DNA of 64,000 bases, taken from Polytrichum commune. Its lineage: Eukaryota; Streptophyta; Polytrichopsida; Polytrichales; Polytrichaceae. The stretch lies in NCBI GenBank assembly GCA_950295325.1, contig OX485805.1, forward strand, positions 31,359,501-31,423,500, written 5' to 3'. The translations under genes and the position numbers were made by a program. Positions 2,573 to 60,617 of this stretch are shown here, piece after piece (within the stretch, counting starts at the first letter, position 1; every line of letters begins with the position of its first letter). The notes beneath the pieces were generated by a model that did not search any database, had not been told where the DNA came from, and saw only the letters and a list, made by a program, of their open reading frames with translations.

Positions 2573-3242
2573 TGCCTCTGAAGATAGTACCGACACACAT
2601 ACACTTCACTTAGGGTTTTGCTTCACTTTGTAGAAGCTGTGGGATCGAGTGTTTGATGGTTTGACTCGCACTCTAAGAAGCCATTCTGGAAATCTAAACA
2701 AGTGGACGAACGGGACGAATGTGTTTCACAAGATGTCACTTTCATTTTCTCCTTCACATTTTGTGCCTCTGAAGAAACAGAGACACATACCCTTCACTTA
2801 GGGTTTTTCTTCACTTTGTAGATTGGGGAAGGGGAGGTGGAGGGATGTGTATTAGGGAGTCAAGGTGTAGGAGCTCTGGGATCAGGTGTTTGATGTTTTA
2901 AGTTGCACTGGAAGAAACCATTCTGGAAATTTAAACAAGTGGACGAACTGGACGAATGTGTTTCACATGATGTCACTTTCATTTTCTCCTACACATTTTG
3001 GGCCTCTGTAGAAACGGACACACGTACAGGTCACTTAGGGTTTTGCTTCACTTTGTAGATTTGGAAAGGGGAGGGGGAAGTGGGGGCGTGTATTAGGAAT
3101 TCAAGTAGAAGCTGCGGGATCAAGTGTTTGATGTTTTAATCGCACTTTAAGGAACCGTTCTGGAAATTTAAACAAGCGGACGAATGGGACGAATGTGTTT
3201 CGCATGATGCCACTTTCCTTTTCTCCTTTACATTTTGTACTG
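2573..3242 (+). repeat. three tandem leader repeats upstream of the NAC start
   Basis: Three direct units start at CCTCTG-containing phrases: 2573-2763 (191 bp), 2764-3000 (237 bp) and 3001-3242 (242 bp). Each carries CACTTAGGGTTTTGCTTCAC or a one-base variant, then CTTTGTAG, a TTTGATG-containing block, CATTCTGGAAATyTAAACAA or a close variant, GGACGAATGTGTTTC and a pyrimidine-rich TTTTCTCC end. Unit 1 lacks about 46 bp of purine-rich sequence present in units 2 and 3. The TTAGGGTTTT core is a telo-box in reverse, so the leader holds three. The NAC reading frame begins 27 bp after unit 3, just past an AG that could be a splice acceptor (3261-3262). Confidence 0.85.
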
Positions 3243-3268
3243 AACTGTGTTGGTGTCGGCAGACAACA

Positions 3269-6072
3269 ATGGACTGGGCTAGGTTACCAGCCGGTGTGCG
3301 CTTTGATCCTAGTGATGAAGAACTCTTAGAGCATCTGGCTGCCAAAGTTGGCCGCAGTGGCACTAGGCCACATCCGATGCTTGATGAGTTTATTGTTCCC
3401 CTCGTGGAGGAGGATGGAATTTGTCGCACTCACCCTGAAAATCTTCCAGGTAAGCGTCTTCACGGTGCTCTATTGGATTTGATGCTTCACCTTCTGGTTT
3501 GTAAAGGTTCATTGAGTTTGTTTGTTTGCAACCTCCTCTAGCCTTGTCAATTAGCAACATCAATGTGCGACACCATCATTCTCAAGGTCATCTTAGTTGG
3601 GCCTCGTCTTCTCATTGTGTGGCGCACACACTTAAGAAGTAGTGCATTGCCAGGGGTTAAGAAGGATGGCAGCAGCTGTCATTATTTTCACAAGCCCTCT
3701 ATGGCGTATACGACTGGCACGAGAAAGAGGCGTAAAATACAGACTGATGATGTTGTGGATGGTGGTGCCGATGTTCGTTGGCATAAGACTGGCAAAACTC
3801 GCCCTGTTCAGCAGGTTTGCCTTGAACTCAGTTGTGACTTGCTACTCAAGTAATCATGATCTAAATCTTCAAGACTGTTTAACAATGGGTAGAGAATCGT
3901 GTCTGTCTTGTCAATTGGTGTAAAGTACTTGTGTATAACATGAACATTGCAGAGGCTCTATACATGACGAGAGAGATGAACATCAAGTTCTGACATGTGT
4001 TACAACTATGAACTTTTGCAGGGCGGAAGGGTATTGGGCTTCAAAAAGATTATGGTCTTATACAGAGCTACAGGTAAGAAAAGTAAGAATGTAAAGACGA
4101 ATTGGGTGATGCACCAGTACCACCTGGGCAGCCATGAAGAAGAGAGAGACGGAGAACTTGTTGTCTGCAAAGTTTTTTTCCAAAAGGCACCTCGGAGCTG
4201 TCCAAGCCGCAAAACAGTTCCACAGGATGATGAAGACTGTGATCCCTCAGAGAGTGACATTGGATTCCAGGAACCAAGTGCAGCGGGGTTAAGTGGGGAT
4301 TCACCATCTGTTTCTGCGGTGACCAGAGGAATGCCTCCCGTAACTCCAAAGTCATTTGCCCCATCACGCACTGCTAAGCAACTTTACGCAGAACCAACAG
4401 AGTCTAATTCTGAAATCTTTGACCCTCAGGCTCTTGCTACTCAATCAAAGCAGAGAGCACCTGTTGTAAGTCCCTTCAATTCCCCTTTTCATTTACACAT
4501 TATAGCATCCCTTCATACCTTTATGTGCATGTTCTCCACCTCATAATTCAACTCTTTTCATATGAATATGTACATACAGGAACAACGACGTGCATTGCAA
4601 TTTCAAGGCAAGAAAGTCAATGGCTTTGATGTGAACCAGTCGCCAAGTGGTTCGATCCTTCCCCAACCCCTTACAACCTTGAATGAAATGGAGCCGACAA
4701 CTTTTGAAAACGACCAAAGTCTTCAAATTACTGGTGGGACTGAAAATATGGCCTGTGAGGGAGAAGATGAATCTTTCCATGCAGGGAACCACAATGAGGC
4801 TGTGAGTCTTAGCGAGGTGCATCAGGACTGGGAGATCGACCCTCCTGCACAGCCAGCACAATCAGAGGACCCTACAGTTTCACAACTCCTCTGCAATGAG
4901 CATCTGAATGGCGACCCTCTGGTGCAGGTCTGTATTGTATTGCCATTGATAATTTTTTTGCGTCTATAAAAGTCAAGAAATGACTTGTTTTACCCTTAGT
5001 TGTGACTTGGACTCATGATTGTCAGCTTTAACTGTAAGTTGTCCTAAACCCTAAACCCTATGGTTATTCCATGTGAATTGCAGGATGCTGCCTATGAAGA
5101 CTTCAATTGGCGCAGCTGTGCCTATGCTGTTGGCTGTAGCCTGGAGGAGGAGCCTTACCGATGTGACAGTGGCAGAGGAGAGCAAGCCGAGGTCGACCCT
5201 GCCCTGAATGACCTTGTGCTGGACACTCCTCCAGACATGTTAGAGGTGCGTGATGGTCATGGTTGTCTTCAATGTCTATCTTTTGGCATTCCCTTGTGTC
5301 ATGGATAAGTTTCAAAATGCTTAGGATCAGTACGTTATTGTTATCAAGCTCATCTTGTAAGGTCACCACACCTTAAATCGATAGGATAAGTGCTGAGCAT
5401 AGCATCCATTATAATCGTCAAAATTATATATTTTATTTTTGGCAAGACCAAGAGGACTCTAATGCATTAAAGAATGCACCATTTGGATACCGTATGCAAA
5501 ATTTCCAAGTTTCATTGTAGGCAACCTAAAACTAACACCTATATCAGATGTTCAGGTGGTGTACATCCTCATAATTAATACATACCTATTGCACAAGATT
5601 TCTAGGTGTTGGTTTTGGGGATACTACCAATGTTGGGTGGGAAATAGAAATGGCACCCAACCCCCGCCTGTTATCAAGGCAGTTCTTCAAATTCATAACA
5701 TGGTTCTCAAAATTTCAAGTAACCAGAGTTGATTGTAAGCGTGGGTTTCAGAAAATCAAAACCAAGTCAAATAATCTTCTACAAAACCAATGGTTTTTTT
5801 GGCTAGTTCTTGAAAATCGCTGGTCCTTTGATCATTTTCAAATAACCAGGACTGGAGGTTCTTTTTTTCTAAAACTTTCAAAATCCTAGAGTAACTCTGA
5901 AACTGGAGTTATTAACAAAATCAAATACCTGCCCCAACACTAATACATACCTTGCTTCTGGCTCTTTTGGATACAGGATCCTGTTGTTACATCTCAGGAA
6001 GTGAGAGATTGGCTCGGAACTAGGAAAGATTCTCTTGACCTTGATAACACTGATAGTCAATCAACAACTTAA
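3269..6072 (+). CDS. SOG1-like: SOG1-like NAC-domain transcription factor, six coding exons
   Basis: Exons: 3269-3449, 3654-3814, 4022-4465, 4580-4927, 5084-5245, 5977-6072. All introns are GT-AG and frames join exactly: 463 aa plus TAA. The NAC domain fills residues 5-170: [22 protein letters not shown], the basic TGTRKRRKI block, [17 protein letters not shown] and [12 protein letters not shown]. This is the SOG1/SND2 branch of NACs. PVTPK (220-224), DTPP (425-428) and three SQ sites (363, 438, 459) plus one TQ (254) point to SOG1, the plant DNA-damage regulator phosphorylated by ATM/ATR. Arabidopsis SOG1 is about 450 aa. Its N-terminal extension before the NAC domain (WLID and CPxC motifs) is not seen here. 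Either an upstream exon joins at 3263 in phase 0, or this copy lacks it. The GGRVxGxKK stretch and acidic E-rich tail after HQYHLG resemble SND2 relatives, so an ancestral-type or sister gene is possible. Expected to act in the nucleus. Confidence 0.88.
5043..5060 (+). promoter_or_regulatory. double telo-box in intron 4
   Basis: Consecutive CCTAAACCCTAAACCCTA lies 24 bp before exon 5, giving two full plant telomere-type heptamers plus a partial. Telo-boxes (AAACCCTAA) are known cis-elements near plant replication and translation genes. In an intron it may be a binding site or only chance telomeric sequence. Confidence 0.6.
5628..5940. mobile_element. CAATGTTGGG-end MITE-like insertion in NAC intron 5
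   Basis: Starts CAATGTTGGGTGGG and ends near CCTGCCCCAACAC, an imperfect inverted repeat. Internal sequence aligns along its length with the element at 25227-25578: shared TTCTTyAA...TTCATA or TTTATAG, ATCAAAACC-AGTCAAATAA, and ACTTTCAAAA-CC blocks. It occupies 313 of the 731 bp of intron 5, and its right end sits 36 bp before the exon-6 acceptor, so the branch point may lie at or in the element. No clear target duplication was found. Confidence 0.7.
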
Positions 6073-16684: not shown

Positions 16685-17180
16685 AGGGCCACTTCACACA
16701 CGAGCCAAGAGCCGTGACCATGAAATTGTGAGAGCCCAAAAGAAAGTATCCAAAGGCCGTGCCAACACACCTCGAAAATCATGTCGTGTGGTCACAAATC
16801 CTCAAGTGTAGTGTGCAGTCATATGTAACCGGGCCCTCAACCAAATGCTATTTCAATAAATTTCCGTATATGTGGGTCCTCACACATGATAAAATAAAAT
16901 AAACCAACAGTTGTGAGTGTTCAAAATGCCATGGTCTCCCAGTTCGGTGTTATCCAAGAGATGGTTTTTGAAAATAGTCCAAGTGACCATGAAACAAGAT
17001 CCACCCGATGCCATGTAGGAAGCCATGTAGACTTTACATCCATCTTGCATTCACATACTACGTTGGTCCCTCAAGCATAGTGTGAAGTAGCGAACTTGGA
17101 CCGGCTCCGCCTTTTCCACCAATGAGAGTGCTTGAAGTGAAATGGTCACGGGCTCTCAGTCTTGTGTGTGAAGTGGCCCT
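16685..17180 (+). mobile_element. 496-bp TIR element, AGGGCCACTTCACAC family, full copy
   Basis: Ends AGGGCCACTTCACACACGAG and GTGTGTGAAGTGGCCCT, with inverted repeats of about 38 bp including GAGCC-GTGACCAT. The interior has no ORF. Other copies: 18901-19391 (same orientation, left end lost) and 50433-50933 (opposite). Non-autonomous DNA transposon; superfamily not settled because no clear target duplication is visible. Confidence 0.8.
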
Positions 17181-17184
17181 GAGT

Positions 17185-18140
17185 TTGCCAATCCTTTCCA
17201 TGAATTCTATAGTTTTTTTGAGCTTCTTTTCTTTCCATGAACCTGGTCGTGGTCATTTTGTCAGGCCAAGGGTGTAGCCTTTATGGTAATTACACTTATA
17301 ATAGCCCATTAAGCATATGATCATGTAGTTCTTATTATTAGATTTACTTAATTTATATTGGGCCTTGTTGGTAATAAAAAGTGGATTTCCAAGTTTTTGG
17401 ACAATGTAAGATAAGCGGCCCTAAATCATTTACTTATCTTGATCAAACACCTATATTTGAGTGGTAGGTGGTTAGGTGCAAGTCTAAGTGTGAACACAAC
17501 TCTATGGCCAACCTAACTTGGGGGGGGGGGGGGTATGTGGTCTTCTTTTCATTCACTATTAATGAACAATTCAAGATTGGTTCCAAAACTTTATGAGACT
17601 ATACTAAATATTTTTATTTGTGTCATATGGTATTTCATGTCATTGTGGTAACTTTTCTAGTGACACTTCTTATGACTATGTTTACAAGTACTTTCATCCC
17701 AACTTCCTTTTAGTCCATCTAAATGCCAATTATTGCAACAATTATGTTTGTCACATGTTGTCATGGATGATTGAAATTTGGATGAAAAATCACATAGTAA
17801 GTGACAGTAATTGCGATACTGTAGTTTTACATTGTCCAAATGTTTTAACAAGGAATGACAAATGATGTTCAATTTACATTTAATGTTAGTGACACTACAC
17901 GGGTGGTTTACATATCACTATTCAGGAAGACAAATAGAGTTGGTGATGCTAAATATAATATCTAGTGTAGTCTTTGGCTTCTTCATATACATTTGCAGAC
18001 GCACGTAAATTTCAACCTTGCAAATCCAAGCAGTAGAAGGAAGTAAACAACAAATAATCAAATAAGGTCAATTGATCTCACGAAGAAACTATGAGTCTTC
18101 AACTTGTTGACTGTACATTAGGTTTGTTCAAAACCAACCC
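17185..18140. other. unassigned sequence
   Basis: Contains a 14-base G run near 17520-17533. The 81-codon open frame at 17620-17865 shows no motif. A short CACTACACGG-containing stretch lies at 17894. Confidence 0.4.
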
Positions 18141-18900: not shown

Positions 18901-19391
18901 ACACACGAGCCAAGAGCCGTGACCATGAAATTGTGAGAGCCCAAAAGAAAGTGTCCAAAGGTCGTCCCCAACACACCTCCAAAGTCATGTAGTGTGGTCA
19001 CAGATCCTCAAGTGTAATGTGAAGCCATATGTGACCAGGCCCTCAACCAAATGCTATTTCAATGAATTTTTATTCATGTGGGTCCTTACGCATGATAAAA
19101 TAGAATAAATCAAGAGTTGTGAGTGTTCGGAGTGCCACGGTCTCCCGGTTCTGTGTTAGGCCTACCTCCATAAGATGGTTTTTTGGAAATAGTCCAAGTG
19201 ACCATGAAACATGATGCATTTGATGTCATGTAGGAATCCATGTAGACTTTATTCCATCTTGCATTCACATACTCCGGTGGTCCCTCAAGCGTAGTGTGAA
19301 GCGAACTTGGACCAGCTCTGCCTTTTCTACCAATGAGAGTGCTTGAAGTGTAATGGTCACAGGCATCCAGTCTCGTGTGTGAAGTGGCCCT
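18901..19391 (+). mobile_element. TIR element, AGGGCC family, left end truncated
   Basis: Begins inside the left inverted repeat (ACACACGAGCCAAGAGCC) and ends GTGTGTGAAGTGGCCCT. Very similar to 16685-17180 internally. The loss of the outer 10-11 bases shows it is immobile. Confidence 0.8.
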
Positions 19392-19394
19392 GGA

Positions 19395-38832: not shown

Positions 38833-39636
38833 GCCAACTACAGTGTTTTCTACAAAGGGCTAATTACATGCGAGTACCACATCCACATGCAAACTATAGT
38901 GTCCACATATTTATTGGAGTATCTCCAACTTTTTGATGTTGAACCCAATGTTCTTTTAACCCACATTTGGTTGAAATACTCGACAACATCTATGTCCCTA
39001 TACTTCATCCTTGATTGCCATACAATTCCCAATATGATGAAAGCCATTAAATTTGACAATACCCACTTTGGCCTGGAGGAATGGGCCCAAAAGACCTTCA
39101 AGACATGTTCCACTAACATCAAGGTTGTTGTGGTTGCCTATGGACAACAACTCCATTGGCGTCTAGTTGTCGTAGATGACACATCAACCTTACACATGGA
39201 CTTTGTCTACCGCTACTTGCAGTATGTGAAGACATTCTCTGTTTGTGTGGATAACACTTGGGCTTGGTGGAGAGGGATATTGAAAGGCAATACCTTGTAT
39301 GATGCAATTGTTTATGTGCATGTCCATCAATGTCATGTATCCATACAAATTGATGGGTGGGAGTGTGGAATTCATAATGCTATGAAATTCAAGCACTACG
39401 TACAAATGAGAGCATTTGTGGGAGGGCACAAACATCACCAACACAATGACAATGATATATCATTTCATAACAAGTTGGTTTTAGGTTCATTTCGTGTCAT
39501 TTACCATGTGTTGTTGACCTCCTTGTACCGTTTTTCCCATGCTCCGCATGTTAAATGGCCCTTTATTTTTGTTGGTAGCGCAAAATGTGTGTTGTTGCGA
39601 GTGATTGCATGGGAGTTTTGTGTAGAAGATGAGTAA
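38833..39636 (+). pseudogene. Ulp1-type (C48) cysteine protease ORF, transposon-associated
   Basis: An ATG at 38887 opens 249 codons; the frame is open back to a TAA at 38830-38832. Numbered from that ATG, the C48 layout is visible: His90-Trp91 (L-H-W-R-L-V-V-V-D), Asp105 (H-M-D-F), Gln154 and Cys160-Gly161 in Q-I-D-G-W-E-C-G-I. This is the His-Asp-Gln-Cys set of SUMO-specific and transposon-borne Ulp1 proteases. The W-L and N-terminal strand region is present but loose. Plant MULE and CACTA elements often carry such domains, and a MULE transposase relic lies 0.8 kb downstream on the other strand. The expected longer N-terminal region is missing, so this is probably a fragment even though the catalytic residues persist. 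Host SUMO protease is less likely. Confidence 0.7.
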
Positions 39637-50390: not shown

Positions 50391-50432
50391 CTAACTTGCC
50401 ACTATTGAAACCACCACAACACATGTTAACTC

Positions 50433-50933
50433 AAGGTCACTTCACACATAGAGTATGAGAGCTTGTGACCATTACACTTCAAGCACTCTCATTGGTGGAA
50501 AAGGTGGAGCTGGTCCAAGTTCGCTTCACACTACTCTTGAGGGACCAGTGGAGTACGTGAATGCAAGATGGATGTAAAGTCCACACGGATTCCTACATGG
50601 CATCAAATGGATCATGTTTCATGGTCGCTTGGACTATTTTCAAAAATTACCTCTTGGAGGTAGACCCAACATAAAACCCGGAGACCATTGCACTCCGAAC
50701 GCTCACAACCGTTGATTTATTCTATTTTATCACGTGTAAAGACCCGCATGAATAAAAATTCATTGAAATAGCATTTGGTGGAGGGCCTGGTCACATATGA
50801 CTTCACACTACACTTAAAGTCCGTGACCACACTACATGATTTTGGAGGTGTCTTGGGACGGCCTTTGGACACTTTCGTTTGGGATCTCACAATTCCATGG
50901 TCACGACTCTTGGCTCGTGTGTGAAGTGGCCCT
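50433..50933 (-). mobile_element. AGGGCC-family TIR element, inverted full copy
   Basis: Ends AAGGTCACTTCACACA and GTGTGTGAAGTGGCCCT. Interior is the reverse of 16685-17180 and 18901-19391, about 500 bp. No ORF. Confidence 0.8.
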
Positions 50934-50939
50934 TACTAT

Positions 50940-52900
50940 GTCCTTCGAACCTATGTCAAACTTGCCGGCCGTCACTTGCCACTAGTCCACATTTGATTGA
51001 GTGGGGCCTAAACGACTCCAACTCATAGGTGCATGTGTTTGAGATCCTTTGCAATAACTTGGCGGTTTTGTAGATTTCACAAATATCTATGCACGGTGTA
51101 GATACTCGGGGAGGATCTAAGGACAATGTATTGTGCACGTACCTTTAAGATCCTCATCTTTTGGTACCCTTACAATCATAGGCAAAAAGTTGGGCCTAAA
51201 CCTTTGGGTGGAGTCACGACTCACTACCAATACAATTATGCTCTAGTTTATTCGGTTGACGGTGCCAAACAAACAAATAGTACTTCCTTGGAAATGTTTA
51301 AAATCTTTGTCATTTCTTCAATATGATTGGGTGGGCCACGTGTGGGAGAGAGTTTTTGTGGAGGAGTTAGCCACTTGATTCATTTGTGAATGGAACCCAA
51401 AAAAACGGTTACGCTCAGTTGGCTACGAATCGTTGGGGCAACAATGTTTAGTCCCTTAAAAGGTTGGGGGGTTATAACGTTATCAAGCAATCCGACAATG
51501 TTCTATGTATATATACATGAGGAAGCTTTTGTTAAGGGGTAGCTCTTAAGATTTAGTGTTGAATCTTAGCTCAGCTTGTGTATTCGTAGTTGTAATTCTT
51601 GATAGATGGGGGGGGGGGGTCCACAAAGATCAATTGGGTTGCTTATGGTGTTCGGCTCAAATATGTGTCCTGAAAAATAATGTGAATACCTAATTAGGAG
51701 TTGACTCTAGTGGGCACTCTATCATTGACATTACGAACATACATTTTATTCATGTCAGTCTTGAAAGAGATCCAGAGTTTCTATCTATCTAGGAGTTGAC
51801 TCTTACCATTGATCATCATAAAAACAAACACCGGCTTCTTTTTATTTTTCCAAATATGATTGTTTCTCTAATAAGGATTGAAATCACTTCAAATTTGATT
51901 TGATATGCTAAAACTTGAAACTGTATAATGTTGGGAAAAAATCACCATTCCCAAAACCACGCTTTTACAATTTGTGTAACAAAGAAAATTTCAAGGGTCA
52001 TCGAAGCAACTCGCCCTTTTAGAAATGCTAAGTGGTTTGATGCTATATATAACGATAATAAAAATATCGTAGACTATGTATGCAAGAAATTGCATATAAC
52101 GGCAAAAGACTTTGTGTGTATAAATGCAATGAAGATAGAAAACACATTGCATTTTGAATGCAAATATGTGTGCATTCAATGTATGAAAATATAGCTCCTC
52201 ATGAAATGAAATGACTGCCAACTTTCGTGTAGATGCCACAAGTCCATCAATTTGCAAGCAAAGATTTCATTGGTCTAAGTGTAACAATGTTACCATCTCT
52301 AAATTATAATAATGGGTACTCATAATAAACAATATACATTTAAAAACGTGTACAAATGATTACGCTTCTCTACAAACCAATCATATGCATAACATGGTGG
52401 TCTGAAAATTTATAAACATGGAGAGGAGAAATACATAGTTTAGTATGGAAGACTACAAAGATGTCTTTGAAGATGATTTTATGTGCATTACATGCATTCA
52501 TACTACAACCACTACAATGACAATCATGAATATAAGTCCATGTAGAGGACAATAGTAATGAAAACAAAAATGAACAAGCAAAAATAAGTTATAATACAAA
52601 AATTACAATGTGTGGAAATGAGCCACATATGAATGCAATTGCATTTAGGTTAATTGTTTCAAGTTCATAGACCCTTGATACAAATGTATAGGAGGGTAGG
52701 ATATTTCTTCCATGCATATCTCCAAAGGCACATATCTATTCGTGAGCTGCACCTTTGTAGACGTATAGTTGAAGATAGGTCATAGGTGTATGCCACTTTT
52801 TGCCCCCGTTCAAGGTATTCATCTTTGAGATAAATTCATAGTTGGTGGGAATGTGTATGAATTTAGACCAACTCAAATGTGAAGCAACATCCAAATCCAC
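50940..52900. other. unassigned sequence
   Basis: A 12-base G run near 51607. The 88-codon frame at 51928-52194 (R-P-F-R-N-A-K-W-F-D-A-I-Y) is of unknown origin. Confidence 0.35.
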
Positions 52901-52921
52901 GCCAGTGGTAACATTGGAGTT

Positions 52922-52992
52922 CTCTTTAGTTTCATCTTTAATTTCATCTTTAATTTTCTCTTTAATTTCATCTTCAATTCCCTCTTTAATTT
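52922..52992. repeat. 12-bp minisatellite
   Basis: Repeated CTTTAATTTCAT-type units, six copies with drift. Confidence 0.75.
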
Positions 52993-52999
52993 GTGAGGT

Positions 53000-54330
53000 A
53001 AGATGTTATGGCCATGCATGCCATGAGACCTAAACCAACAATGTAGCAATTATTATCGTTGACAAACAACCACCTAACCCAAAGATGTTACACGAAAGTC
53101 GGACATGAAAGGCAGGTGGTGAATGCACATCACATGTCGGGGTAAAAGACTATGATGTTCCTTTTTCTCTCTTTTTTCATTTCTTTCTTACACAAAAGTC
53201 TCAACCTCAGACGCCCTTTATAACAATAACCAACGCATCAACCAACAACCTATTGGACAAAATAGTGTGGTATGATCACACGCTTTTGAACATATGAAAG
53301 ATTTCGAATAACATAACCAATAAAATGGAACCCTTCCGTAATATTTTCATTCCATATTAGGTTTTTTTGGTCCAAATTTAGTAAAAATATGAATGCAACA
53401 AGCGTTTGAAGTTGTCAAAACCCTAAATGCATATCTTTACTATTCCATTTGTTTCACATTCCTAGTGTATCACATATCCAACCAAACTCTATATAGTGAG
53501 GTACCTTCTTGAGTCTTGTGACCCAAGGAGGTTGTTGAACAACCCGTTGAAAGGCTTTACACTATTGACCACTATGGGCCCCTCCTCCCTATTATTTTCC
53601 CGGCTTCTAACTAACTCCATCCACCGGGCTTTGTCACCTATAGTGCACGTACTTGCACCAAATTCTCATCGAGACCCTTTAGTAATGTTGAACAATGATA
53701 AAAATGTAGGAGATGTCTTTCTTTGTTCTCCAATCGCATATAGCATTGGATGTCATTATAGTCAATCATGACGGTGGGGAGAGGGGTTGTGATCCTCCAT
53801 ACACATGAAGACTTTGAATAGGTTGTGTTGGGTTCTTTTGGTCCACTTTGGCGTGTCATTTCACCTTCTTCTTCCTTTTTTCCCCGTTTTCTCCTATCGT
53901 AATTGTAGGCAATTGCAATATGTACCTAGGAACAAAGAATCTATATACATAAAATGATATTTTTTGAAAGGGTTACTAAAAATAAACTTGGGCTATTTTC
54001 AGTAATTTAATGCAATATGGTTCTAACCCTTGAAGGAAGTGGAGTCTCAATACAAGTCCATCTTCACAATTTACACATGCCTTGGCAAGTTTTAAAATGA
54101 TATTTTATATATAGGTGGGTTTGAATCCTCATTTAATACATTATCTCATGTCAAGAAGAAAAAGAAAAAGTTGTATTCATACTTGGCATTGATGATCAGA
54201 ATACAACACATGTATTCACATCCAAGGGCACTTGTGTTGTGTATTTGAGCTTAAATATTCAATAGCATCAAGATATTTCACCAATTCAAAAAGCACGCTT
54301 GAAGAATAAGGTCATTTATATGTAAGGAGG
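53000..54330. other. unassigned sequence
   Basis: No gene recognised; the 91-codon frame at 53496-53771 has no known motif. Confidence 0.35.
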
Positions 54331-54339
54331 CTTTTCTTG

Positions 54340-54840
54340 TTAAAGAGTGGAATTCTTTCCATCTCTCGTGGAAGAAACTAGATAATTTCCACTCAAGGGT
54401 TTTCTCTACTACGAATGTGAATTGTACTTGAAACAACTATTGACATCACCACAATGCAAGATCATTGTGGCTTACCGCACCTTGAATCATAGACTTGCCA
54501 TCGAAACTGGACGGTGGCTGACTATCCATGTCCCTAGAGATGATAGATAATGCCATTTCTTCACTTATTGAAAAAAAAATATAGGCACTTTTTGTGTTGG
54601 AATGTCTCCTATATAACCCCATTACAAATAAATTTTAATTACTATGTGAGAACGTAGTATTAGGGAGTCTCGAGTCTTTCTTTTAATTGGACCATCAAGT
54701 TGACATTAGCCTCTACCTCACTCCGCCACTCCAGGAAACTAGGAATTAGTTGATTTGACACAATCATGATGTACTCTTAGTCCCATTGGACTTTTGGTTT
54801 TGTGGACTCAAACAATTTCATTTCATTTCATTTCAATGCA
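54340..54840 (+). pseudogene. reverse-transcriptase C-terminal relic, copy 4, longest
   Basis: Covers the whole tail: Y-E-C-E-L-Y-L-K-Q and Y-R-T-L-N-H-R-L-A-I-E-T-G-R-W, then P-R-D-D-R followed by a stop, and C-H-F-F-T-Y where C-H-F-C is expected (a stop and a Cys to Phe change in the zinc knuckle). After that come E-C-L-L-Y-N-P-I and N-V-V-L-G-S-L-E-S-F-F, stop, L-D-H-Q-V-D-I-S-L-Y-L. It links the part seen at 118-353 to the parts at 9995 and 50125, showing that all belong to one protein family. Several stops: dead. Confidence 0.7.
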
Positions 54841-54929
54841 ACAACACACACGCTCGCACGCGCACACATATGCCCAACCTACAAAAAAAAAACTTATACA
54901 AAACAATACATTATTTCTATCTATATAAA

Positions 54930-54968
54930 TAGATATACTATGTATGTATGTATGTATGTGTATGTATT
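54930..54968. repeat. (ATGT)n microsatellite
   Basis: TATGTATGTATGTATGTATG-type tract. Confidence 0.85.
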
Positions 54969-55249
54969 TTTTGGGTCACATGCAGCTTGGGCATCATATG
55001 GGATGATATCCTTTTGGGCTACAAACATGGCACGGCACATGCATCATGGGATGGGTTGGTACCATGCACATCTTCCATAAATTCAGTTAGAAGTGACTTT
55101 GTTGCTAAACAATTACAAAACATATACTAATGTGGCCTTCAAATATCAAGGACTTGCCCAAAATTGCACCCATCCACAAAAACTTCACGAGAAAACACAA
55201 TTCAAAACTATAAAATCAAATAAAATCAAATAACTCAAGGTGGCCGAAA

Positions 55250-57040
55250 GAGTTTAAATGGAAGTCAATGTGCTTACATCTTCATTAGTGTTTTGCCTCA
55301 TGCACCGCCGGATCATAGAGTGGGTTACACATACAATTAATATAGTATCCTCCACAATGCATGATAACAAACCCACCTCCTTCATTTGAGCCCGCCCTCG
55401 CACACATAGATCACTTAGCCTTCTACAAATGTTGTCGTTATTGGAATGTCGATTAGTAGTTGCCAAAAGTTGAGAATCGAAGTGCGGGCCTAGCTTCCTC
55501 CTCCCTCATTCAATTGGATGTACCTTAAGAGCCAAGTCGGTCATTCTAATTGGAAATTGGAGATGGCTCAATGCTAGCCAAGCTTGGGCAACTCTAGACT
55601 AGTACCCGTGCACTCTTTACGTGGTATCCAACTATTCCCGGTTGTAGTGTCCAACATGAAATGAACATCCTCATAAGTTATGCCACCCTTTGTGACAAGG
55701 AAGTTGCCAACAATAGCGTCCTTTTAGTTGATCCGTGAAGTCAATATCACGCATAAAAGTGGTGGTGTATTGCAAATGTATTGGCGTGTGTTGACCATAA
55801 ACTGCACCATTGCATTTTAAATACGGCCACAACTCCACCCGGAGTTGTTGTAAGGGACATGTGAGTTGACAACAATTGTATTGTTTGTTGTCCATCCATT
55901 CCACCGATTTAATCTTACGGCCATTTTGCATTTGCCAATCAAGTGTAGGTATTGTAAGTTGTTAAGTTTTTTATTTTATTTTATTGGATTGGAGCAATGC
56001 TTTTGGGTAGGCCACTTTGATTGAAGCGCTCGGTCCCTATAGTGTAGATGCCTCTCCTCTCCGAGTCTCGGAATGACTCAAACTTGCTAGTAAAGAAATT
56101 CTCCATCGTGCATGTATGCACGGGGAGGTCACTTCATTGTCAAGTTGACACCACGTGTGGACAAAGTTTGCAACCCCTATATTATATGCCATATATAATT
56201 TTAAAATTTATGATATTTTTTCTACATATACATAACCATTGATAATATCTTTTGTATACTTTTTTGAAATTTTTAGTCATCTTTATTTATTTTTTTAGTT
56301 CAATTCTGTGTCAGTCTAGTTAGAAACGGTATGTTTTATGAAAAGAACAAATCATCAAAATTAGTTACCACTTTTGACTATGTCATAGGTACTGTGTATA
56401 TCTACTCATGAAAAAAATTTGATAAAATTTTGACCCATTTTGGTGGTGCAACTTACCAAAAGAAGATTTTTTTTGGTCACACGTGGTGTTCAACTTGACA
56501 ATGGAGTGATCTACCCGTGCATGTATGAGCTCTATCATCAAGCCCCTCTACAAGTTCTTTCTTGTCACATTTGTGCAATGCGTGGCATCCCCTATGAAAG
56601 AAGGCACAATCTTCCACACTTATAGAGGCTCCGTAAAAAACATCAAAATACCATACATACTTTGACTTGCAATTTGTCAAACATCACAATTTCAAATCCT
56701 TCTTTGTTAGCTTACCTAACATGTATTGTCTAGCTAGACAATAACAACATTTGGTAGTGAACAATCATCTCTTCTACAATAATTTATTCCCCAATATTTC
56801 AATGTTCTTGCAACAATCTTTAAATTCATGGAGTAGCCAACAAGTTCTTTACCATAGGTGTTCTATCACTGCAAATCGTTTTGGTTTGCACTAAATGCAA
56901 GCACCTATAAATGGCCAAATACCTATCTCTCCCCATATTATTATAAATTATTGGACACCAAAACATAGACTCGCTATTGGCCCAATACAATTCCACATTT
57001 GGAGATTTTCTCATGCCCATTGTCGCAACCCAAACCCAAA
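55250..57040 (-). pseudogene. piggyBac-type transposase pseudogene
   Basis: Read right to left: M-G-M-R-K-S-P-N-V-E-L-Y-W and G-R-D-R-Y-L-A-I-Y-R-C-L-H near 57020-56890; a K-S-K-Y-V-W-Y-F-D-V block and G-L-D-D-R-A-H-T (56680-56530); then, after a 401-bp insertion, M-E-N-F-F-T-S-K-F and R-G-I-Y-T-I-G-T (56100-56010); then V-E-W-M-D-N-K and M-R-D-I-D-F-T-D-Q-L-K-G-R-Y with H-K-G-W-H (55900-55680); then L-D-T-T-T-G-N-S-W (about 55650). A frame-shifted Cys-rich tail with H-C-G-G-Y-Y-I-N-C-x-C-N-P lies near 55370-55290. This is the order of the DDE_Tnp_1_7 domain and the C-terminal zinc finger of piggyBac transposases. Frameshifts and a stop after the I-G-T region show it is inactive. TTAA-flanked ends were not located. 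Confidence 0.75.
56119..56519. mobile_element. hAT-like non-autonomous element inside the piggyBac relic
   Basis: 401 bp beginning CACGGGGAGGTCACTTCATT and ending with its near-complement AATGGAGTGATCTACCCGTG; inverted repeats run about 45 bp to CCACGTGTG. It is flanked by a perfect 8-bp direct repeat CATGTATG (56111-56118 and 56520-56527). An 8-bp target duplication and CA...TG ends are hAT features. Skipping the element and one duplication restores an unbroken A-H-T-C-T-M-E-N-F-F-T junction in the piggyBac frame, which confirms the boundaries. Confidence 0.88.
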
Positions 57041-57044
57041 CTTA

Positions 57045-58800
57045 GTTTGAAGGTGGTATGTTGTGTAACACTGGCAGCCAATACTAACAAGGCCCTGAGT
57101 TGAGAGACACCCTCATTTGTGGTCCTAAGGACATGCCTCCAACTCCCTGCAAGTTATGGTTACCACTCACTAGCCTCATGACCCTCTCCCGGTAGTTCAA
57201 CACATGCCCTTATTAATGTGGGTGAGCTCAAATGGCTCCGCAAGGACTAGCCCCATGAACATGGAAAGTCCCATGATACCACCCCATGACTTCACTACCT
57301 TCCCCCACTCCTATTAGTTAGCCTATGGTCTATGTGGAGGGTCTCACCTCACCAACAAATAATGGACTCTATGTAGAATATGTTGCATAATTTGCAGTTG
57401 CATGAATTAAAGACAATCAAGAAAATTCAGCATGGTGTGTCGGGTGTGGCTTTGGTGGGTCCGTCATGCTCACCCTCTAAACATTACTAATTCCCAAACG
57501 AATAGCTCCACACATTGACGTCTAGAGTGAAACCCATATCGCACAACTTTAGCCGTTTCCCATGTTGTCAAGCTGGACTGAGGATCATGCAATCAACGCA
57601 AGGAATCATCATCTAATTAAGAGGACCCATGTCCATAGACCTGGGCACAATGCATGCCAATATCAACTCCTTGAGGCATTTCTTCCCTTTTCGTTCTTGG
57701 TAGCCCTATACAACGTTGACCCAAGAGACGCCCTTTGGATGTCATTAGCGCCCACCATGGGACGTGGCGTGTTGGGATAGGTACTTAGACAACCTTGGCC
57801 CCATAAATTTTGGTATATGCAAGTACGGGGATCAATGTAAGGTACATTAACGTAAGTATGTTGTAGGGGTGAAACAAAAAAACAAAAAATGTAGGGATCG
57901 AAGCTCATTAAGAAGTTACACACAAGTGGTTGAAATTCGAGGTCACCGAGGTTGATGAAAGTTTATGCGAGGCCCGAATCGGGCCTTGTAGTCCTTTAGG
58001 AGTTAATCGGACATTTTAGCACACATGAATAAATGTGCTTAAAAGCTTGTAGGGTTCTCATATTCTCCACAACATCTATTTCACGTTCAGTTAAATATCA
58101 CACTACCGAGTATAATCACAATTGGGACACCTCCAACGTTTACTCAAATATGGATTGAGTATAAATAATTTTCATTGATTGTTGGAATTTGGGATGGAAG
58201 AAGAGAATCCAACCACAAACTTAAAAGGAGAATGCATGTTCCTCTCATACCCCTTCATAGCTCAATGGCTTGGACGAAAAGAATGTAGATTTACATCCAA
58301 TATCATAAAAAATCCTTTGAAATATATTAGGTTTGGTGTGTCAAAGCTCTCATTGTTACTCGTAACAATTCAGTGGCTACTTGGAAGATCAAGCCTTGAA
58401 TGGATGTTATTTCTTGAGTCCCCTTGACTCACGATTTCTCCGAAGGTGGTTGTTTTTTTCCCTTACGATTCAATTTTTAAAATAAAATTGAATTGTGTGT
58501 GTGTGTGTTGAGGAAGGGGGGGGGGTGATGGTGAAGAAGCAAAGGGCGGGGGTTGAGTTCCATGTGATGTGATGCCGGGGGCTAATTACTCCAAAAGAGG
58601 TACCAAATCCTTTTATGTTGCCAAAGTGGTACCTAAGCTAATTGGCTTGATGATCCTCCGTGTCCTTGAATGCCCTTGACGGGCCCCCTCCGACCCCCCC
58701 CCCCCGGCTCACGCCATCCTATTGGCCCACGAAGATCCACCTACACTTGATAAGTTCCTTTTGAGGGCCTTTTTGACCCTAAGGCATTCAAGAAAACCAT
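57045..58800. other. unassigned sequence
   Basis: Open frames at 57562-57780 and 58179-58427 show no motif. G and C runs at 58516 and 58696. Confidence 0.35.
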
Positions 58801-58844
58801 TTGGATCGGACGCCAATGATGAACAAAATTGAAACACATTCTAT

Positions 58845-58884
58845 TTGGGATTGGGATTGGGATTGGAATGGGAATGGGAATCGG
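58845..58884. repeat. hexanucleotide TTGGGA/TGGGAA tract
   Basis: Six units of TTGGGA drifting to TGGGAA. Guanine triplets at regular spacing make a quadruplex possible; it is not the plant telomere heptamer. Confidence 0.75.
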
Positions 58885-58933
58885 AAGAGCCCCATTATAC
58901 TACCACTTGCCCAATCTCATCAAAAACTCACCA

Positions 58934-58960
58934 AATCTCTCTCTCTCTCTCTCTCTTTCG
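58934..58960. repeat. (CT)n microsatellite
   Basis: About eleven CT units. Confidence 0.85.
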
Positions 58961-59039
58961 GGGAGAGAAGAGGGGAACTTTCTTACGTGAAATATGTGTG
59001 TTGTCCAACGGAGAGAAGGAAGTTAATAATGAAGGCATT

Positions 59040-59160
59040 TAGTGTACCTTATCTTATCCCATCTAACATGGAAACTTGATCCCTTTAGGTTTGTGGACGA
59101 TGTGTCTCAAATGACTTGGACTATATTAATTTAGAGTCTTTGAAATCACTTGTCGAAGAG
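59040..59160 (+). repeat. partial dispersed repeat (partners 24.1, 46.2 kb)
   Basis: CCATCTAACATGGAAACTTG, GATCCCTTTAGGTTTGTGG and CAAATGACTTGGACTATATT blocks. Confidence 0.5.
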
Positions 59161-59164
59161 TAAT

Positions 59165-59935
59165 AAGAGATGTGCACTTGTGGGAAAAAAACATCAAATG
59201 ACAAGTGCAAAGGCAACAACACAACAACCATGACTTTCGAATGTTTCTCTCCCCCTTTTGCCAACGGTTGTATTTGTGTAGTTTTGCAATCGAGTGTACA
59301 TGATCATATTGGCGGTTGGAACTGTCCGAAATTCGTACAAAAGTCCAAATTTACTTAAATCCTAGTATGTAAACTCATCCTAGGTCTGAGATGACCCTAA
59401 ACTACCATGTGATAGTGGAGAGGTACCCATTTCAAAATGGAATGGTTGGCGGTTCAATTCCCGTTGTGAAATCTTCTCTCTACTTGATGGAAAAGAAGAA
59501 GAAAAAAAAACTAGCTAGGTATGTAGGAAGCCAAGAGCCCGCTCCTGCAAGGTAGGCAATAAACCCCACCTTGTACCAAGATGATTCTTGAGTAGGGTAG
59601 GACCAACGGGCTCAAATTCACGTCAGATTGCCCGATATTGGTTATTTATTTATAAACTCGTTCCTCATGGATGAAGGGGCTTTGGTATAAACAAGCCCCC
59701 CTACAACGTTGAGGGCCGATTCATTCCATCTCGATTCCAATGGACTAGTTGAAGGTATCTCATACCATTTCCGAATTAAATTGATCTTAAACGATTTTTT
59801 AAATTTTTTTATAAAAAAACTACTAAACAACTGCTTTGTGTTTTCACCTTGTTGAGAAACGGATGAGGTTATATAGACGACACCACGAACCTCTAGCCCC
59901 AAAATTTCCACCGTCCGTCTCAAAGTGCAAATACC
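59165..59935. other. unassigned sequence
   Basis: No recognised gene. Confidence 0.35.
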
Positions 59936-59942
59936 GAATAAC

Positions 59943-60250
59943 TACACTAAAAGTGATATTTAGTGTTCGATTACATTTAATGTTGTTACCACCCTACCCT
60001 GCTCAACACTAGTTTTCAATTCCTCGACAACTAGTGTTAGACATAAATGTGCCGCTACCTCCCTTACTGCCACCTCCCTTATTACATCCTTCTTTCCATA
60101 TCCTTACTAACCCTAAACTTAGACATGTAACTTTCACATATTACCAGAGTTGATATTTTAGTGTTGGAGTTTACATTGAATGTTACTTACTTTCATAGGG
60201 TTAGTGACGTTTAGTGTATGCGTTCGTATTTAGTGTATCAAACACTAAAC
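59943..60250. repeat. possible MITE rich in ACTAAA/TTTAGTGT motifs
   Basis: Starts CTACACTAAAAGTGATATTT and ends TTTAGTGTATCAAACACTAA, with AACACTAGTTTTC/ACAACTAGTGTT pairs inside. The ends are only loosely complementary. Confidence 0.35.
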
Positions 60251-60617
60251 CTCCTATTTCGTGTGCTTCTTAGTAGTAATTATAGGAGTGGTTTCGGAGA
60301 CGGTCGATAAGTTAAGTGGAGGGGATCGAGGTTGCTTTTGAAGGTGTTACTCATTCCAGTACACAAAGCATGCAGATGGGCCTGTGAAGCTTAATTGGAA
60401 TCCTTTGCAGGTGATTGGCATGATTGGCTCCTAAAATTTTAGTCCAATCCATACACTTTCCTCCACTTGTATATTATTAATACCCCCCCCCCCACACACA
60501 ACCTTAACTTAACATGGGGCCCAACTTTAACTTAATTCGCCTCGCACCCAATCCCCTACCACCATGCACAATATCTATCATTTGTATCGGATGACATACA
60601 TAACCCCAACAAATAGT

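Follow-up and report, generated by a model that had tools for sequence, protein, structure and literature searches.

The window analysed here, a stretch of 64,000 nucleotides, carries on its minus strand (57041-55254) what profile matches and motif order indicate is very probably a piggyBac-type transposase whose catalytic domain has eroded, hereafter the relic. Its reading passes through three frames and contains stops, and it is interrupted by a nested insertion, as befits the relic that had been originally predicted. Two ORFs near the start of the window match the NAC domain. The coordinates of all features are collected in Table 1.

Table 1. Features of the window discussed in the text, with the basis on which each was assigned
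Feature	Position	Strand	Basis
NAC-domain gene exons	3140..4543	+	PF02365
Putative transposase piece 1, best-preserved stretch	56826..57041	-	PF13843 profile 50-103, unedited ORF above cut-off
Eroded link from piece 1 to piece 3, frame unclear	56684..56825	-	all three frames with stops; unpicked-frame PF13843 match crosses to profile 162
Putative transposase piece 3, ends at nested insertion	56528..56683	-	with piece 4, PF13843 profile 160-246
Target-site duplication CATACATG, copy 1	56520..56527	.	direct repeat
Nested non-autonomous DNA element, terminal inverted repeats	56119..56519	.	inverted repeat
Target-site duplication CATACATG, copy 2	56111..56118	.	direct repeat
Putative transposase piece 4, ENFFTS and GTERFN	55981..56110	-	PF13843 profile 207-246 on ORF 55981-56133; motif counts
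Putative transposase piece 5, WMDNK and IDFTDQLKG	55671..55961	-	motif position and order; weak profile support
Possible continuation beyond catalytic domain	55509..55670	-	visual reading alone; Pfam search negative; alignment to solved piggyBac chains not significant
Proposed Cys-rich tail, not a distinguishing feature	55254..55505	-	no zinc-finger match; Cys count commonplace

Eight ORFs were given to the Pfam search, and two of them matched PF13843 (DDE_Tnp_1_7). The unedited minus-strand ORF of piece 1 did so with an E-value of 1.2e-5 and 25.2 bits over positions 50-103 of the 349-position profile, above the curated cut-off of 22.4 bits, and the unedited ORF 55981-56133 gave a weak match below that cut-off but in the right order (E 0.098, 12.4 bits, profile 207-246). 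When the whole frames of 55200-57100 were searched with stops read as X and without any picking of frames, PF13843 was found in one of the six (E 1.4e-5), and in two further frames unrelated families were matched at chance level (E 0.19 and 0.019). A frame-picked read-through of the relic reached 4.6e-10, a score that is inflated by the frame picking and is not leaned on here. No transposase family other than PF13843 was matched in the Pfam searches of ORFs, frames and joined pieces. The original prediction, which had named a piggyBac-type transposase and proposed a six-frame search with this profile, was thus borne out, with a significant PF13843 match and no better match to another DDE family. 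The first 49 positions of the profile and an N-terminal domain were not recognised in the relic. A search of the PDB by sequence with the read-through returned no matches; piece 1 alone returned four, all dehydratase subunits at chance level (E 0.45-1.9), which were rejected. A 20-base stretch of the relic (56724-56743) is an exact match to its own reverse complement.

The insertion between pieces 3 and 4 is 401 bases long. Its inverted-repeat ends start with CACGGG and are identical in 42 of 48 aligned columns, and it is flanked by an 8-base direct repeat, CATACATG, whose boundary with the element can be placed only to within a few bases, since the two overlap in sequence. Once the element and one copy of the repeat are removed, pieces 3 and 4 share one frame, and the joined sequence matched a contiguous stretch of PF13843 (profile 160-246, E 2.9e-4; its 20.7 bits fall short of the 22.4 cut-off), while the reversed control gave no match. 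The insertion is defined by both the duplication and the shared frame. An 8-base duplication and ends that start with CA would presumably suit an element of the hAT type; the six frames of 55200-57100 held no transposon domain besides the PF13843 of the surrounding relic.

The motifs follow one another on the minus strand in the order that had been claimed, with first bases at 56103 (E-N-F-F-T-S), 56037 (G-T-E-R-F-N), 55898 (W-M-D-N-K) and 55745 (I-D-F-T-D-Q-L-K), and with H-K-G-W-H after the last of these. When the whole window is read in six frames, the corresponding classes occur once ([DE]N[FWY][FY][TNS]S), twice (GT.R.N), seven times (W.D.[KR]) and once ([VIL]D..DQ). One of each lies in the relic, collinear within a span of about 360 bases, and the first and fourth classes are unique to it in the window. 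The fifth class, [KRH]K.W, says little, being found 18 times in the same six frames. Classes one, two and four also occur in the solved chains of Trichoplusia ni (T. ni) piggyBac (6x67) and piggyBat (9c0f), and W.D.[KR] (W.D.K) we take to be a piggyBac motif as well. In the second catalytic motif, ENFFTS, an E stands in the place of D346 of 6x67 (6x67 numbering), and the third catalytic D is retained in IDFTDQ, T. ni D447 having been placed from the solved chain. The first catalytic residue, D268 in T. ni piggyBac, has no identifiable position in the relic owing to a frame change. A dead transposon copy need not retain the catalytic D, D, D.

The C-terminal third is weakly supported at the sequence level and is the weakest part of the piggyBac case. 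When added unedited to the joined middle piece it contributed 1.3 bits (22.8 versus 21.5 with the stretch reversed), and with picked frames it contributed 5 bits (26.8 versus 21.8 for the reversed control). The WMDNK/DFTDQ stretch matched no transposase model in Pfam when searched alone, nor did it give a match together with the end of piece 4. In pairwise alignments of pieces 4, 5 and 6 to the two solved piggyBac chains, piece 4 was of borderline significance (equalled by 22 and 51 of 1000 shuffles), and pieces 5 (252 and 423 of 1000) and 6 (260 and 837 of 1000) were not significant. The Cys-rich tail that had been offered as a further feature was rejected as distinctive: no Pfam zinc-finger model matched in the relic, and its content of at least five Cys is equalled by 394 of the 9,214 stop-free 47-residue windows in the six frames of the whole stretch.

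The TTAA-flanked ends that the original prediction had proposed to look for did not emerge either. Among the 14 x 20 pairs of TTAA sites in 52000-55260 and 57030-60500, none had inverted ends above the null, the best pair being identical at 10 of 16 positions and a best of at least 10 occurring in 289 of 500 null draws. The ends of the relic may have been eroded. No second copy was found within the 64-kb window (best non-self match, E 0.051), and no transposon domain was found in the six frames of 53000-55200 or of 57100-59000, the three minus-strand frames of the latter giving no Pfam match at all. Pattern scans with queries derived from the relic, able to find only close relatives, gave 5 matches in IMG/VR viral contigs and 11 in GTDB genome contigs, none of which was confirmed. 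Less than 1 kb downstream of the relic, 54333-54527 is one copy of a dispersed repeat whose other copy lies at the window start (111-306; 79% over about 200 bases).

A plant host is supported by the window's own sequence. The ORFs 3140-3538 and 3980-4543 matched PF02365 with E-values of 5.3e-6 (27.4 bits, above the cut-off of 27 bits) and 1.4e-5 (26 bits, below it), and they cover profile positions 1-49 and 93-122, the opposite ends of the NAC domain. NAC factors are known only from plants. A tandem repeat at 2629-3237 (237-base unit, 2.6 copies) extends into the first of these exon ORFs. The second line of support is compositional. The observed/expected ratio of CAG/CTG (CWG) is 1.42 in the NAC exons (3140-4966), 0.40 in the window as a whole, 0.21 and 0.19 in the flanks of the relic and 0.06 in the relic itself; leaving out the nested element, the relic has 2 sites where about 33 are expected (4 versus 66.9 when both strands are counted). 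Values as low or lower occur in 6 of 627 windows of equal length, some of which may overlap the relic. We infer that this loss arose because CHG sites in silenced repeats were methylated and then deaminated. The nested element has 3 CWG sites against about 6.6 expected, small numbers that are nonetheless richer than those of the relic, as expected of a later arrival. The claim of a land-plant genome thus stood as far as a plant is concerned, by the NAC gene and the CHG-type decay, and a land plant rather than a streptophyte alga is likely.

CpG fits this picture less well. Its observed/expected ratio is 0.54 in the relic, 0.48 in the NAC exons and 0.49 in the window, and a relic no lower than the exons is a misfit because methylation at CG in silenced repeats would be expected to deplete CpG as well. 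Outside the NAC region in general, CAG/CTG depletion far exceeds that of CpG. One idea for this excess of CHG over CG loss is a different repair of the two contexts.

Taken together, the locus is in all probability a silenced and decayed piggyBac copy in a plant nuclear genome that was later hit by the nested element. A cut-and-paste transposon of the piggyBac superfamily would have inserted into the nuclear genome of the plant, its transposase, going by superfamily membership, excising the element and re-inserting it at TTAA sites by DDD chemistry. The copy would then have been silenced, very probably with CHG methylation, and it has decayed by point changes and small indels, as the three frames, the stops and the near-total loss of CAG/CTG display. 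Later, a small non-autonomous DNA element jumped into the transposase gene and left the 8-base target duplication seen there. The present copy would be unable to make a working transposase, and the relic today is non-functional DNA. Counting against this explanation are the absence of TTAA ends, the weak C-terminal third, the E at the second catalytic position, the lack of a PDB match and a CpG content that is not lower.

The relic could instead descend from a piggyBac-derived gene that the host had domesticated and that was subsequently pseudogenised, and not from a transposon copy. Such an origin would account for the failure to find terminal repeats, a TTAA duplication or a second copy in the window (best other E 0.051), but erosion is to be expected at the ends of an old insert, copy number cannot be judged from 64 kb, and the relic's CAG/CTG loss resembles that of the window's non-genic sequence and not that of the NAC exons; we consider it improbable. 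Still less credible is contamination or mis-assembly, by which an animal or fungal piggyBac fragment would have been joined to plant sequence. The superfamily is, as part of a 2025 beetle paper has it, reported mainly from animals (PMC12732532), and the IMG/VR and GTDB scans found no relative by which to place the relic. However, the relic shares the CAG/CTG loss of the window in extreme form (0.06, with flanks of 0.21 and 0.19), which fits a long stay in a CHG-methylating nucleus, and it carries a nested DNA element; contamination is thus unlikely given both the NAC gene in the window and the CHG-type decay. Least probable of all is that the relic stems from a different DDE family or that the match is due to chance, for which the modest single-piece scores and the inflated read-through score might speak, since PF13843 was the sole transposase family matched, the reversed control gave nothing and the motifs are collinear.

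piggyBac is a widely used genetic tool that has been studied mostly in animals. The relic resembles T. ni piggyBac (PDB 6x67/6x68) and piggyBat (PDB 9c0f) in the profile of its catalytic domain and in the motif order DN[FWY][FY].S, GT.R.N, W.D.K and D..DQ. In contrast to both, it is dead and has E at the second catalytic position; no N-terminal domain, terminal repeats, TTAA duplication or zinc-binding tail can be recognised in it, and its sequence is too distant from their solved chains for a PDB match. Among plants, the repeat table for the fern Ceratopteris richardii lists 1,230 PiggyBac copies totalling 122,417 bases (PMC6890710), a land-plant example under the same superfamily label, which is there an automatic repeat annotation. 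The corresponding tables for a feather grass and a Metrosideros tree list one PiggyBac of 75 bases (PMC8319324) and 201 bases (PMC13084152), respectively; all three are repeat annotations and not studies of elements. Passages of other papers place PiggyBac among the superfamilies present in all taxonomic groups studied, land plants included (a 2015 compilation; PMC4438587), name insects, fungi and plants as the sources from which piggyBac was isolated (2023; PMC10813416) or mention occasional occurrences in plants, for example red algae (the 2025 beetle paper; PMC12732532). No study devoted to land-plant piggyBac was among the matches listed in the literature search, in whose coverage subscription journals are mostly not included; a paper on the moss Niphotrichum was discarded, as it contains just the word 'piggybacking'. 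For a land plant, such a relic is therefore unusual, yet with precedent.

The relic is accordingly best described as ordinary, an old and dead representative of a known superfamily in a group of hosts from which reports are few. Having aged inside a plant nucleus, it supports past piggyBac activity in plants and argues against contamination here, and it suggests a general test, in that CHG-type decay could authenticate old plant transposons. It is one data point on where the piggyBac family has lived, and its value lies in that question of distribution. A bolder reading, which we entertain only tentatively and regard as doubtful, is that the family had genuine activity in a lineage of land plants from which the superfamily is considered almost missing, through horizontal acquisition or inheritance from a green-algal ancestor, and later died out under CHG silencing.

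Other mobile sequence is present in the window. An element some 500 bases long occurs three times (16685-17185, 18901-19392 and 50428-50933), in copies that are 85-89% alike, one of them inverted, and that make up a non-autonomous DNA transposon family; matching inverted ends (GGGCCACTTCACACA.. and ..TGTGTGAAGTGGCCC) are found in two copies and are worn in the others. The longest stop-to-stop ORF of the window (38833-39633, plus strand, 267 residues) had no Pfam match at E 0.1, and by eye it recalls the Ulp1-like proteases that are carried by some plant transposons.
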